Positions 36,193-40,654 of a DNA stretch of 64,000 nucleotides are shown here, in pieces. The stretch is from Sphingopyxis sp. HIX. Its GTDB lineage: Bacteria > Pseudomonadota > Alphaproteobacteria > Sphingomonadales > Sphingomonadaceae. The DNA lies in NCBI RefSeq assembly GCF_001468285.1, contig NZ_LNSB01000008.1:1-64000 (forward strand), read 5' to 3'. The translations under genes and the position numbers were made by a program. The notes beneath the pieces were generated by a model. It ran no database searches and had not been told where the DNA came from. It saw only the letters and a program-made list of their open reading frames with translations. The first letter of the stretch is position 1. Each line of letters begins with the position of its first letter.

Positions 36193-37224
36193 CTAATTCA
36201 ACCCATGCTTCTTCAGCGCATGGCGGATCTGGTCGTAACTCAGCCCCAGCGCCTCGGCCGCGATCTTCTGGTTGAAGCGGCACCGTGCCATCGTGTCGGC
36301 CAATATCTGCTTCTCATAAGCGTCCACGGTCGCGCGCAGGTCGCTCACCGGCCCCGACGGTGGCGCGACCGGGGCGGGCGCCTCGACCGCCGCGCTGGCC
36401 GGCGCTGCCGCCCCCTCGGCCTTCGCCGTCGTGTTGCGCACCGCCGGTTGCCACGGGCTCGCAAAAGGATCGAAGCTCAGCGCATCGACGGGCTTCGACG
36501 GATCGGCCCAGCGATAGATGCCGCGCTCGATCACGTTCCTGAGCTCGCGGACATTGCCCGGCCAGTCGTGCCCCTCCATCGCCGCGAGCGCGCGGGGGCC
36601 GAAGCCCGGCCATTCGTCCCAGCCGAGCACCGCGGCCATGCGCGTGCCGAAATAAGTGGCGAGCACCTCGATATCGCCTTCGCGCGCGCGGAGCGGGGGC
36701 AGGGTGATCACCTCGAACGACAGCCGGTCGAGCAAGTCGGCGCGGAAGCGATTGTCGTCGACCAGCGCGGGCAGATGCTCGTTGGTCGCGGCGACGATGC
36801 GCACATCGACGCGGATCGGCCGCGACGACCCGACGCGCGTCACTTCGCCATATTCGACCGCGCGCAGCAGCCGCTCCTGCGCCCCCATCGACATCGTCGC
36901 GAGTTCGTCGAGGAAGAGCGTGCCGCCGTCGGCCTCCTCGAAGCGTCCCGCGCGCGTCCGCGTCGCGCCGGTGAAGGCGCCCGCCTCGTGCCCGAACAAT
37001 TCGCTCTCGATGAGCGTCTCGGGCATCGCGGCGCAGTTCATGATGACATAGGGGCGGTCCCAGCGCGCCGACAGCCGGTGCAGGCGCTCGGCGATCAGCT
37101 CCTTGCCCGTCCCGCGCTCGCCGATCACCAGCACCGGGCGGTCGAGCAATGCCGCCTGGCTCGCGCGGTCGACCGCGTCCTGGAAGGCGGCCGACTGGCC
37201 GATGAACTGCGTTTCGCGCTCCAT
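36193..37224 (-). CDS. pspF: Phage shock protein operon transcriptional activator PspF
   Basis: This 343-residue sigma-54 activator has a AAA+ domain with Walker A 'GERGTGKE' near residue 35, the GAFTGA loop in 'AGAFTGATRTRAG' near residue 80 and Walker B 'GGTLFLDELA'. It has no N-terminal receiver domain, as is typical for PspF. A Fis-type helix-turn-helix ends the protein ('IAAEALGLSYDQIRHALKKHG'). An unusual Ala/Pro-rich linker (about residues 255-290) precedes it. It is divergent from the psp operon. ATG 37224 was chosen; the frame stays open to 37260, but that would overlap the probable operator. Confidence 0.94.
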   Translation of the reverse strand: MERETQFIGQSAAFQDAVDRASQAALLDRPVLVIGERGTGKELIAERLHRLSARWDRPYVIMNCAAMPETLIESELFGHEAGAFTGATRTRAGRFEEADGGTLFLDELATMSMGAQERLLRAVEYGEVTRVGSSRPIRVDVRIVAATNEHLPALVDDNRFRADLLDRLSFEVITLPPLRAREGDIEVLATYFGTRMAAVLGWDEWPGFGPRALAAMEGHDWPGNVRELRNVIERGIYRWADPSKPVDALSFDPFASPWQPAVRNTTAKAEGAAAPASAAVEAPAPVAPPSGPVSDLRATVDAYEKQILADTMARCRFNQKIAAEALGLSYDQIRHALKKHGLN

Positions 37225-37229
37225 TCCCA

Positions 37230-37272
37230 ATGATTGGCAAATTTTCCCGCTGATTGGCAAGCGAAATTGCCC
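37230..37272. promoter_or_regulatory. Probable PspF upstream activating sites
   Basis: TGATTGGCAA occurs twice in direct repeat (37231-37240 and 37251-37260), and the second copy continues into GCGAAATTGCC, making an imperfect palindrome. The sites lie 65-95 bases upstream of the sigma-54 promoter, the usual distance for PspF enhancer sites, and right at the pspF start, which would allow autoregulation. Confidence 0.55.
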
Positions 37273-37324: not shown

Positions 37325-37340
37325 TGGCACGCCCCCTGCA
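37325..37340 (+). promoter_or_regulatory. Sigma-54 promoter of the psp operon
   Basis: TGGCACGCCCCCTGCA fits TGGCAC-N5-TTGCW with one mismatch, and the invariant GG and GC are exactly 10 bases apart. It faces the psp genes and lies 58 bases before the ATG of the first gene. Together with divergent pspF this is a classical PspF/sigma-54 control region. Confidence 0.85.
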
Positions 37341-37398: not shown

Positions 37399-37572
37399 AT
37401 GAAGACGATTTTTGCCCAGGCCACCACCTTCGCGCTCAGCGCGGCCGGCGCTCTGGCGATCCTCGTCGGCGTGATCGACCAGCCCAAAGTCGCCTTCGAC
37501 ATCGCCGCTTCCCCGGGCGGGATGGCGCTGGCGGCCGCTGCAACCACCCCGGCGGTCGGCCAAATGGCTTGA
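37399..37572 (+). CDS. 57-residue single-pass membrane protein, first gene of the psp operon
   Basis: The short ORF has one hydrophobic segment (about residues 8-27, 'TFALSAAGALAILVGVID') and an Ala-rich tail. AAAGGGAC about 10 bases upstream is a fair ribosome-binding site. It is the first gene after the sigma-54 promoter and is followed by a strong intrinsic terminator before pspA. I do not recognise a family, and it is not PspD, PspE or PspG. It could be a small stress effector or a leader peptide. Confidence 0.65.
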   Translation: MKTIFAQATTFALSAAGALAILVGVIDQPKVAFDIAASPGGMALAAAATTPAVGQMA

Positions 37573-37669: not shown

Positions 37670-38332
37670 ATGGGTATTTTCTCACGCACCCGCGACATCA
37701 TCGCCGCCAACGTCACCGACCTGCTCGACCGCGCCGAGGATCCCGAAAAGATGATCCGCCAGATCATCTTCGAGATGAACGAGACGCTGGTCGAAGTCCG
37801 CGCTTCCGCCGCCCGCACCATCGCGGACCAGAAGGAAATGCGCCGCCACATCGCCAAGCTCGAAAGCCTGCAGGACAGCTGGAAGGAAAAGGCCGAACTC
37901 GCGCTGTCGAAGGACCGCGAAGACCTCGCCACCGCCGCGCTCGTCGAAAAGCAGAAGGCCGGCGACATGGCCGAACGGCTGAAGAGCGAGATCGCGGTCC
38001 TCGACGAGGCGCTCGCGGGCTATGAAGCCGATATCGCCAAGCTGCAGAAGAAGCTTTCGGAAGCGCGCGCGCGCCAGTCGAGCGTCGTCAACCGCCTCGA
38101 AAGCGCCGAGAACCGCTACAAGCTGCGCGAGATGACCAGCGGCGACCGCGTCGAGGATGCCTTCTCGCGCTTCGAGATCCTCGAACGCCGCGTCGACGAG
38201 GCCGAAGGCCGTGCCGATGCGCTGGGCCTCGGCTACAAGAAGTCGCTCGACGAAGAGATCGCCGAGCTGCAGGCCGCCGACAAGGTCGCCGACGAACTCG
38301 CCGCGCTGAAAGCCGCGCAGGGCAAGAAGTAA
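37670..38332 (+). CDS. pspA: Phage shock protein A
   Basis: PspA is a peripheral membrane ESCRT-III-like coiled-coil protein that restrains PspF at rest and stabilises damaged inner membrane. The 220-residue protein starts 'MGIFSRTRDIIAANVTDLLD', the amphipathic membrane-binding helix, continues with 'AEDPEKMIRQII' and then long coiled coils (about 30-215). Length and motifs are typical. It is followed 12 bases later by pspB. Confidence 0.96.
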   Translation: MGIFSRTRDIIAANVTDLLDRAEDPEKMIRQIIFEMNETLVEVRASAARTIADQKEMRRHIAKLESLQDSWKEKAELALSKDREDLATAALVEKQKAGDMAERLKSEIAVLDEALAGYEADIAKLQKKLSEARARQSSVVNRLESAENRYKLREMTSGDRVEDAFSRFEILERRVDEAEGRADALGLGYKKSLDEEIAELQAADKVADELAALKAAQGKK

Positions 38333-38344
38333 GGAGCGAGACCG

Positions 38345-38617
38345 ATGGAAGAAGTGATCATTGTCCCGATCGTCATCGGCACGCTCTTCCTCGGTCTGCC
38401 CTGGCTGATCCTCCACTATGTCACCAAGTGGAAGCAGGCCAAGACATTGACCGGAGAGGACGAACAGTTGCTCGACGAACTTTACGATACGGCTCGCCGG
38501 CTCGAGAATCGTCTACATACTGTTGAACGCATCATCAGCGCCGACCATCCCGATTTCCGCCCCGCGGTTCGCAGCGATGAAGATCTGGCGCAGCTCGAAA
38601 TGACCAGGAGGAACTGA
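38345..38617 (+). CDS. pspB: Envelope stress response membrane protein PspB
   Basis: The 90-residue protein has an N-terminal membrane helix (about residues 4-26), a short basic stretch and a coiled coil ('RRLENRLHTVERIIS' near residue 52), then 'DHPDFRP'. PspB and PspC relay membrane stress and relieve PspA inhibition of PspF. The motif R-L-x-x-V-E-R-I is the one repeated in the downstream small genes. It is separated from pspC by one base. Confidence 0.94.
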   Translation: MEEVIIVPIVIGTLFLGLPWLILHYVTKWKQAKTLTGEDEQLLDELYDTARRLENRLHTVERIISADHPDFRPAVRSDEDLAQLEMTRRN

Positions 38618-38618
38618 G

Positions 38619-38999
38619 ATGTCTGCCAGCCGCACCAAATTCTACCTCGACAAGCAGAACGCCAAATGGAGCGGCGTGTGCGCGGGGATCGCCGACTATA
38701 GCGGGATCGACGTCCTCTGGGTTCGCGTCGGCGCGGTGCTGATCACGCTGATGGGCGGTTTCCCCTGGACGCTGATCGCCTACTGGCTGGTCGCCTGGAT
38801 GGGAACGGCCAAGCCCTTCGCGCTCTACGGCTCGAACGAGGAAGCGAAGTTCTGGCAGGGCGTGCGCTCGAACCCCAGCGCTTCGACCCGCGACATCCGC
38901 TCGCGTTTCCGCGACATCGACCGCCGGCTCGCCGACATCGAGATGTACTACACCAGCCACAACCGTCGCCTCGCCGACGAGATCGACAGCCTGCGCTAA
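38619..38999 (+). CDS. pspC: Envelope stress response membrane protein PspC
   Basis: The 126-residue protein has a PspC domain ('KFYLDKQNAKWSGVCAGIAD' and 'WVRVGAVLITLMGG', two membrane segments at about 40-62 and 65-83) and a C-terminal cytoplasmic coiled coil. The coiled coil ends 'RLADIEMYYTSHNRRLADE-IDSLR', closely like the ends of the downstream small proteins. It is the partner of PspB in PspF/PspA control. Confidence 0.94.
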   Translation: MSASRTKFYLDKQNAKWSGVCAGIADYSGIDVLWVRVGAVLITLMGGFPWTLIAYWLVAWMGTAKPFALYGSNEEAKFWQGVRSNPSASTRDIRSRFRDIDRRLADIEMYYTSHNRRLADEIDSLR

Positions 39000-39029
39000 G
39001 CGCCGCTGACGGCAACAGGGAGAAGAGAG

Positions 39030-39329
39030 ATGAATTTCGGTGGAACCGGTTTCGTCCTCGCCATCATCGCATTGTCGATCGGCGGCTGGATGTTCACCAC
39101 CTGGATCCGCGCCAAGCATGGCTATCCGGTCGAGAATGAATGGGGCGGCACTGTTCATCGAACCGACCCCGACGCTGATCGAAAAATCAAGCTGCTCGAA
39201 GGCGATAATGCCAAGCTCGCCAGCCAGATCGGCCGGCTCGAAGAACGGATTTCGGTGCTCGAACGCATCGCGACCGAAAACAACGGCCAGGCCGCGCAGC
39301 TCGCCGACCAGATCGACCGCCTGCGCTGA
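39030..39329 (+). CDS. PspB-like small membrane/coiled-coil protein, tandem copy 1
   Basis: The 99-residue protein has an N-terminal membrane helix (about residues 5-25), the juxtamembrane motif 'GGWMFTTWIRAKHGYPVENE', a charged linker, and a coiled coil ending 'RISVLERIATENN..LADQIDRLR'. The last part matches PspB and PspC. It is clearly paralogous to copy 2 (shared GGW-x-FTTW-x-R-x-K-x-GYP-x-EN-x-WG). The start has GGGAGAAGAGAG upstream. Likely a regulator or sensor partner in the Psp response; function inferred from position and motif. Confidence 0.85.
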   Translation: MNFGGTGFVLAIIALSIGGWMFTTWIRAKHGYPVENEWGGTVHRTDPDADRKIKLLEGDNAKLASQIGRLEERISVLERIATENNGQAAQLADQIDRLR

Positions 39330-39340
39330 GGGGAAACATC

Positions 39341-39658
39341 ATGGATCTCGATTTCTTCAATGCCGTTGCCCCCGTCGCCGCGATCGTCGGCCTGGCCGGG
39401 GTCGGTGGCTGGGTCTTCACCACCTGGCTGCGTGTCAAGAACGGCTACCCGCTCGAGAATAGCTGGGGCAAGGCGGTCTATCCCAGGACCAGCGACGAGG
39501 CGATGGAACGCGTCAAGTTGATCGGCCAGGAAAATGCCCAGCTCCGTGCCGAGCTCGGCTCGGTCAAGGACCGGCTGGCGGTGATCGAACGCATCGTCAC
39601 CGACGAAGGCCACCGGCTGAGCCACGAGATCGAGGCGCTGCGGCGCCCGGCCAATTGA
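39341..39658 (+). CDS. PspB-like small membrane/coiled-coil protein, tandem copy 2
   Basis: The 105-residue protein has a membrane helix at about residues 8-28, 'GGWVFTTWLRVKNGYPLENS' after it, and a C-terminal coiled coil 'RLAVIERIVTDEGHRLSHE-IEALR'. It is a close paralog of copy 1, 11 bases upstream. The pair probably arose by tandem duplication. Confidence 0.85.
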   Translation: MDLDFFNAVAPVAAIVGLAGVGGWVFTTWLRVKNGYPLENSWGKAVYPRTSDEAMERVKLIGQENAQLRAELGSVKDRLAVIERIVTDEGHRLSHEIEALRRPAN

Positions 39659-39669
39659 GGAGTTGAACG

Positions 39670-39942
39670 ATGAGCGGCGGATTTGTCCTGGGCTTTTTCT
39701 TCATCGTGGTCGCCGTGCCGACCATCATGGGGATCGGCTACGCCGCCTATGAGCGCCACCTGAAGTTCAAGGAACGGCAGCTCAAGGCGATCACCAACGA
39801 GACGGCCGAGAAAGCGGCGCAATATGCGGCGCAGACCGAACGGCTGGAGCAACGCGTCCGCGTTCTCGAGCGCATCGTTACCGACAAGGGAATTGATGTC
39901 GCCGACGAGATCGAAAAGCTGCGCGACGCCCCGCTCAACTGA
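39670..39942 (+). CDS. PspB-like small membrane/coiled-coil protein, tandem copy 3
   Basis: The 90-residue protein has a membrane helix at about residues 4-25, then 'YAAYERHLKFKERQLKAI' and a coiled coil 'RVRVLERIVTDKGIDVADE-IEKLR'. In size and layout it is the closest of the set to PspB itself. It follows copy 2 by 11 bases, with GAGGAGTTG before the ATG. Confidence 0.85.
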   Translation: MSGGFVLGFFFIVVAVPTIMGIGYAAYERHLKFKERQLKAITNETAEKAAQYAAQTERLEQRVRVLERIVTDKGIDVADEIEKLRDAPLN

Positions 39943-39965
39943 AACGACAAGGAAGGAACCTCCCC

Positions 39966-40229
39966 ATGGGTCCGTTTGAAATGGTCCTCGGCATCGTCGC
40001 GATCGTGACGATCGGCGGTATCATCAAGGCCAAGCACGGCATCCGCCGCGACAACAAGGGCAATGAATATTTCGTCGGCAATGCCGCCGACAAGGAAGAG
40101 ACCAAGGCCCTGCTCGCCGAAATCCGCGCGCTCAAGGAGCGTATCCAGGTGCTCGAACGCATCGCCACCGACGGCAACCGTGCCGCGACCCTCGACGAAG
40201 AGATCGAGCGGCTGCGCGACCGGCCCTGA
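39966..40229 (+). CDS. PspB-like small membrane/coiled-coil protein, tandem copy 4
   Basis: The 87-residue protein has a short membrane helix (about residues 4-20), 'KAKHGIRRDNKGNEY' (recalling the KHGYP motif of copy 1) and a coiled coil 'RIQVLERIATDGNRAATLD-EEIERLRDRP'. AAGGAA upstream supports the start. Confidence 0.85.
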   Translation: MGPFEMVLGIVAIVTIGGIIKAKHGIRRDNKGNEYFVGNAADKEETKALLAEIRALKERIQVLERIATDGNRAATLDEEIERLRDRP

Positions 40230-40258
40230 CCACGAACGCCGACAAAGGAGCAACGCTC

Positions 40259-40507
40259 ATGGCTTTCATCACTCCCGACCTCACCGCCGCGGCGGTCGCG
40301 CTCAGCGCGCTGGCGATCGTCAGCCTCGTCGCGCTCCGCGGCTGGCGCGACTGGATCCAGCTCAAGCGCGACGAACTCGCCGCGGGCCATGTCGCCACCG
40401 TCGCGCACGATGCCACCGTTCCGCACGCCGGCTCGCGCATCGAGATCGCCGACCTCAAGGAACGGCTGCGCAAGCTCGAAGCGATCGCGGCGGGCGTCGA
40501 CCTCTAA
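40259..40507 (+). CDS. PspB-like small membrane/coiled-coil protein, tandem copy 5 (degenerate)
   Basis: The 82-residue protein has a membrane helix at about residues 8-27, 'RGWRDWIQLKRDEL' and a shortened coiled coil 'IADLKERLRKLEAIAAGVDL'. The LERI motif is altered to LEAI and the terminal 'DEIxxLR' is missing, so it is the most diverged member. AAAGGAGC precedes the ATG. It is the last gene of the presumed operon; a palindromic pair follows 7 bases later. Confidence 0.8.
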   Translation: MAFITPDLTAAAVALSALAIVSLVALRGWRDWIQLKRDELAAGHVATVAHDATVPHAGSRIEIADLKERLRKLEAIAAGVDL

Positions 40508-40514
40508 GTTACTC

Positions 40515-40602
40515 GTCGCCCCCGCGAAGGCGGGGTCCGGAGGCGGCCTGGTTCTGCCTCACTGCGTAAAACGGCGGCGGCCCCCGCCTTCGCGGGGGCG
40601 AC
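40515..40602. repeat. Inverted-repeat pair of the 'GTCGCCCCCGCG' family, right border of the psp block
   Basis: Arms 40515-40538 and 40579-40602 are inverted copies of the 24-base family sequence, with one change in the left arm (GGGGTCC for GGGGGCC). The spacing (40 bases between arms) equals that of the left-border copy at 36103-36190. It separates the psp genes from sufE. Confidence 0.9.
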
Positions 40603-40654
40603 GAGGAAGGGACGGGGCTTCCAACTTCCCCCCAAATCTGTCACTGGCGCGCGC

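Follow-up and report, generated by a model that had tools for sequence, protein, structure and literature searches.

A PspC-type C-terminal tail recurs in small proteins encoded behind pspC in the psp operon of Sphingopyxis sp. HIX

We analysed a stretch of 64,000 nucleotides of Sphingopyxis sp. HIX (contig NZ_LNSB01000008.1, positions 1 to 64,000; hereafter the window), which harbors a psp locus with pspF opposite to pspA, pspB and pspC, followed by five small open reading frames (ORFs), c1 to c5 (39030-40507). The ORFs of the operon are spaced by 1-30 bases, and c5, the last of them, ends at 40507. The comparisons described here indicate that the C-terminal tail of PspC, which ends at 38996, is truly shared with c1-c4, and partially with PspB and c5. 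The features of the locus are as follows.

36193..37260, minus strand: pspF, sigma-54 activator, divergent from the operon (TIGR02974 E=2e-141, over cut-off)
37325..37340, plus strand: TGGCACGCCCCCTGCA, resembling a sigma-54-type promoter, in front of the operon and scoring 13.3 of 14.3 in a consensus scan
37670..38332, plus strand: pspA (TIGR02977 E=3.9e-81, over cut-off)
38150..38272, plus strand: PspA residues 161-201 (helix 4/5 region), similar to the PspC tail by profile alignment
38345..38617, plus strand: pspB (PF06667 E=2.7e-28; TIGR02976 E=2.7e-26; curated cut-off passed)
within 38453-38569, plus strand: part 1 of the tail module in PspB, with no part 2; profile link to c1-c3 of 83-86%
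38619..38999, plus strand: pspC (TIGR02978 E=2.4e-34, over cut-off)
38859..38996, plus strand: PspC tail (residues 81-126), a putative docking module with both parts, from shuffles, profiles and a predicted model
39030..39329, plus strand: c1, 99 amino acids, hydrophobic N-terminus and module (39180-39326)
39341..39658, plus strand: c2, 105 amino acids, hydrophobic N-terminus, linker and module (39491-39643)
39670..39942, plus strand: c3, 90 amino acids, a different anchor and module (39778-39939)
39966..40229, plus strand: c4, 87 amino acids, short anchor and module (40068-40226)
40259..40507, plus strand: c5, 82 amino acids, anchor and part 1 of the module only (40391-40504), with a strongly conserved C terminus

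The tail is made up of two parts. Part 1, a helix of the pattern R-[LIV]-x-x-[LIV]-E-x-[IY], occurs in PspB, PspC, c1-c4 and, via its link to c4, in c5. Part 2, which in the window reads [VAY]-T-[DSE]-x(4-7)-[LV]-x-x-[EQ]-I-x-x-L-R, is confined to PspC and c1-c4. PspB has [DS]-A-[ED]-x-P-x-[WF]-R in place of part 2, and in c1-c4 this LDAExPxWR-type helix end is replaced by T-[DE]-...-[LV]..[EQ]I..LR. By sequence, a PspC-type tail is present in c1-c4 and not in c5, whose sequence ends after part 1 in a near-invariant stretch. The first-pass annotation of this DNA had proposed one C-terminal module common to PspB, PspC and all five small proteins; since PspB is without part 2 and c5 has part 1 only, we describe two parts rather than one module in seven proteins, and the proposal stands for PspC and c1-c4 (p 0.0005-0.01). 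The sequences which it quoted lie where it placed them: c1 contains GGWMFTTWIRAKHGYP, c2 contains GGWVFTTWLRVKNGYP and PspB contains RLENRLHTVERI. The PspC tail is predicted to form a helix at residues 86-114, a break at 115 just after T-S, and a helix at 116-125 (mean predicted local distance difference test score, pLDDT, 76.7, a middling value). The AlphaFold2 model of c2, built with 34 of 63 relatives, has helices at 3-33 and 51-101, the latter unbroken, with pLDDT 69-95 by ten-residue block. As a separate observation, the C-terminal stretch of c5 (40259-40507) is near-invariant over some 22 residues among 10 aligned members, although part 2 is missing.

None of the small proteins reaches a curated family cut-off. 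TIGR02976 (PspB; cut-off 51.7 bits) gives 22.4 for c3, 14.4 for c4 and 13.9 for c1, with no match for c2 and c5; PF06667 (cut-off 25.6) gives 15.9 for c3 and 12.2 for c4; and the PspC domain, PF04024, finds no match in c1-c5 up to E=1. c3 matches the PspB model TIGR02976 and the PspC model TIGR02978 alike, at E=1.1e-4 each, both below cut-off. By profile, the N-terminal halves of c1 and c2 are related at 99% and those of c1 and c4 at 86%, while c2-c4 reaches 27%, c3 and c5 no more than 37% with any other, and PspB no more than 7%. As these halves are mostly unlike, the arrangement is one tail on several anchors, and the spread by duplication and fusion that had been suggested for the tails fits in part, for c1 with c2 and c1 with c4. 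Tandem Repeats Finder detected no DNA-level tandem repeat; therefore any duplication is probably old.

We compared the tails in the window by alignment against 2000 shuffles per pair in which each residue was kept in its heptad phase. The PspC tail scored better than the shuffles with c1 (p=0.001), c2 (0.0005), c3 (0.01) and c4 (0.0005), as did all six pairs among c1-c4 (0.0005), c5 with c1-c4 (0.001-0.02), and PspB with c3 (0.0025) and c4 (0.029); for PspB with c1 and c2, p was 0.056. Three pairs were no better than their shuffles, namely, PspB-PspC (0.10), PspC-c5 (0.11) and PspB-c5 (0.22). Thus, the comparison with shuffled coiled coils by which the first-pass annotation proposed to judge its module favors PspC and c1-c4 and not these three pairs, and its statement that PspB ends in the same coiled coil as PspC does not hold, PspB being without part 2.

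We then built family profiles from 61 operons, the window's and those of 60 loci of the host family, with 61 PspB, 61 PspC and 43-75 sequences per copy. Profile comparison linked PspC with c1-c4 at 93.9-96.5%, with scores of 33-43 over 33-36 columns, versus at most 21.7 for reversed copies, 20.8 (against PspC) and 23.6 (against c1) for the highest-scoring PspA windows, and, in the same setting, 13.1 for the best of 54 coiled-coil windows of SMC proteins. PspB was linked with c1-c3 at 83-86% (scores 26-27 over 15-22 columns) and with c4 at 64%. c5 resembles c1-c4 and not PspC (c4-c5 94%, PspC-c5 0.5%). The link between PspB and PspC depends on the setting, being 10.6% when PspB is the query and 57.8% when PspC is, in another setting; it is 35% in other alphaproteobacteria (score 20.2 versus 8.8 reversed) and 5% in a third PspABC set (14.6 versus 13.2 reversed), which, like the lineages with stand-alone genes described below, we call gammaproteobacterial from its E. 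coli-like sequences. The PspC model is matched by PspB of the window at E=0.003, and 20 of 61 sphingomonad PspC-PspB pairs have p<=0.05. The direct relation of PspB to PspC is weak.

Searches agree with these comparisons. When a profile of 60 PspC tails, excluding that of the window, was run against 6471 frames, the best matches after PspC were c2 (E<1e-3 in 40 of 64; median 19.3 bits), followed by c1 (13.0), c3 (8.0) and c4 (7.3), with PspB (4.3), reversed PspC (4.3), PspA (1.8) and heptad shuffles (about 0) as controls. The PspB profile of this comparison was built from the 39 of 60 sequences that fitted a trimming anchor. Reversed PspC frames scored at E<1 in 15 of 60 cases, and therefore the PspC tail is partly palindromic. 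In the reciprocal direction, 14 proteins of other lineages, which had been collected with the copy profile and include no sphingomonad sequence, ranked c3, c4, c2 and c1 as the top four in the whole genome of the window (1e-15 to 7e-5), the next match being at 0.07. Among solved structures, a profile of all seven proteins retrieved only unrelated chains (E>=0.06), and PspC alone retrieved none up to E=1.

In the host family, c1 as a query has a match at E<=0.01 in 125 of 149 genomes; in all 60 loci chosen from these, pspA-B-C is followed by 3-7 copy ORFs. With the window (n=61), operons carry three copies in 8 cases, four in 16, five in 23, six in 9 and seven in 5, at a cut-off of 1e-3 that leaves at least one further copy-like frame, in L059, uncounted; excluding the c5 type, which is found in 55 of 61, the number is two to six. 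One copy-like match in a family member lies outside the psp operon (G079:C6:209437-209580, E 2.9e-12).

Beyond the family, the copy profile matches at E<=0.001 in 11 of 240 genomes of the host class, three of which belong to the host family. One other (G329) has two c4-like genes about 80 kb from its own psp operon, and the other seven matches (4.6e-8 to 6.6e-4) are in frames of 143-623 amino acids, one of them, in G182, inside pspC. In the phylum, 30 of 299 genomes have matches; of 20 stretches inspected, 18 lie outside the class and contain small genes around which nothing matches PspA, PspB or PspC for about 2.5 kb, another resembles G329, and the last is a psp operon. Such stand-alone tail genes occur in 64 of 79 genomes of one family (f169), and its class has matches in 9 of 203 genomes, some of them weak or via PspB or PspC itself. 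One stand-alone protein, L146, matches the PspB model at 2.2e-10 over residues 1-69 and the PspC model at 3.2e-6 over profile positions 44-121, both below cut-off, and on these matches is the best bridge between PspB and PspC. In another alphaproteobacterial family (L121:3548-4111), two small proteins are encoded after pspC, whose tails are of the PspC type and the PspB type, respectively; both tail types seem to have been duplicated independently there. Outside the class (L225:737-1719) pspA, pspB and pspC precede one small gene for a transmembrane segment with a PspC-type tail.

We scanned for sigma-54 sites with a weighted consensus (maximum 14.3). Of the 57 loci tested out of the 60, 55 have a site scoring at least 12.5 in the 700 bp before pspA; among other windows of 700 bp from these loci, 17 of 571 have one. 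The best score ahead of c1 is 11.8 and those ahead of c2-c5 are at most 10.3; therefore one PspF-driven transcript is likely to cover the operon. With pspF divergent, the sigma-54 site in front and pspABC in order, the locus has the predicted make-up of a psp operon in the PspF regulon.

What might these tails bind? According to passages of PMC5596341, PspA is bound by the C-terminal domain of PspC in the on state, and passages of PMC3068692 report that a PspC zipper mutant loses PspA. In the part of PMC6003685 that bears on this point, a V125 substitution in Yersinia abolishes the PspC-PspA interaction, and V105D in E. coli is said to abolish PspC-dependent signalling, with a manuscript in preparation cited there. 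Residue 105 of PspC in NC_000913.3 is the V of ERYVTS, at the joint of both tail parts, and in this column c1-c4 have A, V, V and A. Because the PspC tail is published as a PspA binder and V105 lies inside the shared tail, PspA is the likeliest partner of c1-c4, and these four probably serve as extra membrane-anchored PspA-docking tails. The common docking surface envisaged earlier is thus well supported by the sequence comparisons for PspC and c1-c4 and weakly for PspB, and c5 would have half of it; nothing that we found points to PspF, the second partner suggested.

On this reading, for which tail similarity, operon position and conservation come from our analysis and the binding of PspA by the PspC tail from print, c1-c4 would be small proteins of the inner membrane, probably crossing it once, in which the PspA-docking tail of PspC is mounted on a different anchor. 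Induction of the operon would then increase the number of such tails facing the cytoplasm, and PspC would no longer be the only protein to recruit or anchor PspA, which could be held at several sites or by tails of differing affinity; the topology in the membrane, the binding of PspA to the copies and co-induction are the parts that we infer. c5 and PspB, with part 1 only, would be more likely to pair with other tails than to bind PspA.

Several observations weigh against the docking role of c1-c4. The V105 column holds Y, not V, in PspC of the window. A profile of non-sphingomonad PspC tails scores 20.6 with c4, below the best PspA window at 28.9. The 60 family loci were picked from the 125 genomes with a c1 match. 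The topology of the copies rests on hydrophobic N-termini seen in the sequences and on the c2 model, c2 being the one copy for which the helical cytoplasmic part was modelled. Finally, the tails could simply pair with one another.

This last possibility can be made specific: PspB, PspC and c1-c5 might assemble into a mixed coiled-coil membrane complex that sets how free the PspC tail is for PspA, the copies acting as PspB-like inhibitors or tuners and not as anchors. Part 1 is common to PspB, PspC and the copies, residues 51-101 of c2 are modelled as a single long helix, and the titles of Flores-Kim and Darwin 2015 and 2016 speak of a protein-binding domain with different partners and of PspB and PspC cytoplasmic domains that silence the response. 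However, part 2, absent from PspB, is retained in PspC and c1-c4, and the E. coli PspB zipper is dispensable for interaction with PspC according to passages of PMC3068692. We regard such a complex as unlikely. We give even less credit to the idea that the copies serve another partner, such as an ArcB-like kinase, a secretin, a lipid or an Fe-S protein, the tail being retained for no purpose other than complex assembly. The same passages have the E. coli PspB zipper contacting ArcB, anchors and linkers vary among the copies, and sufE (PF02657 E=1.4e-32) is the next gene 3' of c5, with SufE-like frames in 55 of 61 loci; against this, 147 bases with inverted repeats separate sufE from c5, and no logic of tail and partner ties it to the copies. 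That the tails are generic coiled coils, alike by convergence in heptad pattern and composition, is very improbable: PspB-PspC and PspC-c5 are indeed no better than shuffles, PspA windows reach 28.9 against other PspC tails and some reversed PspC frames also score with the PspC-tail profile, but PspC with c1-c4 beats heptad shuffles, reversed profiles and all 54 SMC windows, and the likeness takes in both the T-[DS] joint and the EI..LR end.

The putative docking of PspA on c1-c4 leads to the question of what the PspC tail itself resembles. The best position in PspA is 144-168 for 8 of 10 tail profiles, the exceptions being the sphingomonad PspC tail and c5; the non-sphingomonad profiles of this comparison left out L127, L130, L137 (PspB), L135 (PspC) and six stand-alone loci. 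We compared PspC and PspA of sphingomonads, other alphaproteobacteria and gammaproteobacteria in nine combinations, using the helix 4-5 segment as reference. In 8 of 9 combinations the PspC tail outscored every one of the 54 SMC windows; PspB did so in 1 of 9 (13.1 versus 11.9). Against 100 heptad-phase column shuffles, PspC beat all in six combinations, 99 in one and 91 in two. In four combinations the whole tail is aligned with a single four-residue gap after part 1 and one has the gap elsewhere; the others shown align over only 24-27 columns, mostly part 1. Among the copies, c1 and c2 exceed the SMC windows with two of the three PspA sets, c4 with one and c3 with none; c5, contrary to expectation, does so with two (19.7 and 14.4 versus 14.3), as does the set of stand-alone tails. 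Helix 4-5 outscores the rest of PspA in other alphaproteobacteria and for gammaproteobacterial PspC on alphaproteobacterial PspA, but not for the sphingomonad PspC tail on its own PspA, where helix 4-5 gives 19.2 and segments of the hairpin give 19.3-20.5, a result that counts against mimicry.

Single pairs give a similar picture. In E. coli, residues 84-119 of PspC align to residues 161-200 of PspA around a single gap of four residues, at a score of 37 (p=0.017). PspC reaches p<=0.05 with the C-terminal 80 residues of its own PspA in 11 of 23 gammaproteobacterial, 7 of 18 alphaproteobacterial and 18 of 61 sphingomonad cases, versus 3, 2 and 1 with the PspA hairpin and 4, 2 and 6 for PspB with the C-terminal part of PspA. 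In sphingomonads, PspC-PspB pairs at this threshold (20 of 61) are no less frequent than PspC-PspA pairs. A co-variation of [FI] between PspA and PspC stood out in the first genomes compared but was not borne out, which speaks against mimicry: with 18 unresolved rows set aside (8 sphingomonad, 8 alphaproteobacterial, 2 gammaproteobacterial), the PspA/PspC residue pairs are F/F 12, I/I 2 and F/I 7 in gammaproteobacteria, F/F 4, I/F 3, L/F 2, I/I 1 and M/I 1 in alphaproteobacteria, and I/I 47 and F/I 6 in sphingomonads.

In passages of PMC8281802, helix 5 of Vipp1 binds the hairpin tip of neighbour subunits and is needed for polymers, and the PspC tail resembles this contacting helix 4-5 region, although it is four residues shorter between the parts and membrane-tethered. 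Passages of PMC6003685 report that PspA(145-222) raises the pspA promoter in a wild-type strain and inhibits it where wild-type PspA is missing, and the former is how a PspC-like competitor would behave. The resemblance suggests mimicry of PspA's own polymer contact, which is moderately supported and faces the contrary results given above. Somewhat doubtful, and offered tentatively, is the fuller version in which the PspC tail and the tails of c1-c4, derived or converged, mimic helix 4-5. As a membrane-tethered pseudo-protomer, PspC would then enter, seed or cap polymers of PspA and thereby free PspF; sphingomonads would have amplified the device to PspC plus two to six tails.

Part of this system has been described before. 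The C-terminal domain of E. coli PspC (TIGR02978), reported as a PspA binder, has both parts (R-L-x-x-M-E-x-x-V-T-S-x(4)-L-x(3)-F-x-x-L), like c1-c4; however, c1-c4 have no PspC domain, and the sphingomonad tails end in EI..LR instead of F..L. With PspB (PF06667, TIGR02976) the copies share size, N-terminal hydrophobic segment, part 1 and matches below cut-off (c3 1.1e-4, the L146 protein 2.2e-10), but their N-terminal halves differ and they have the PspC-type part 2 and not the [DS]-A-[ED]-x-P-x-[WF]-R end. Ravi et al. 2024 (PMC11237479) mention 'PspB duplicates' and 'PspC fused to a divergent C-terminal PspB' in one sentence each, seemingly the same phenomenon, with AOL22920.1 as example; the relevant main text passages give no tail anatomy, assignment of copies to the PspC type, stand-alone genes or resemblance to PspA. 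A likeness of the PspC tail to PspA was not found in the parts of PMC11237479, PMC9239133, PMC6003685 and PMC11746142 covered or among the matches listed by literature searches, which leave subscription papers outside. Within these sources, 'PspB duplicates' are already in print, and the PspC tail amplified on separate anchors and its resemblance to PspA helices 4-5 are new. The removal of PspA from PspF by PspC is a central open step of the Psp response. It is the mimicry, if true, that would matter: were the tail a copy of the PspA polymer contact, this step could be tested by swapping one helix, and the sphingomonad operon offers several natural tail variants on different anchors, to which the stand-alone genes elsewhere add more.

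Some minor observations complete the picture. Among 53 stand-alone rows, which include PspB of L225, L228 and L229 and a PspC (L232), all four with p>0.6, 13 have a sigma-54-like site within 220 bp upstream at p<=0.05 when compared with windows from that locus (binomial 1.5e-6, Fisher 0.002, for related rows). Of these 13, ten fall in a subgroup starting with M-N-[MVLIT]-T (L160, L161, L253-L257 and L259-L261), in which L155, L159 and L258 missed this threshold. By analogy, the stand-alone tail genes are possibly PspF regulon members, as is pspG of E. coli. In the window, a 57-amino-acid ORF with a hydrophobic N-terminus (37399-37572) lies between the sigma-54 site and pspA, and among 60 loci tblastn matched it only in the two of the same genus. 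GC-rich inverted repeats of the CCCCGCGAAGGCGGGG type, read by eye, lie between c5 and sufE at 40515-40605, and perhaps mark the operon end or an interspersed repeat.

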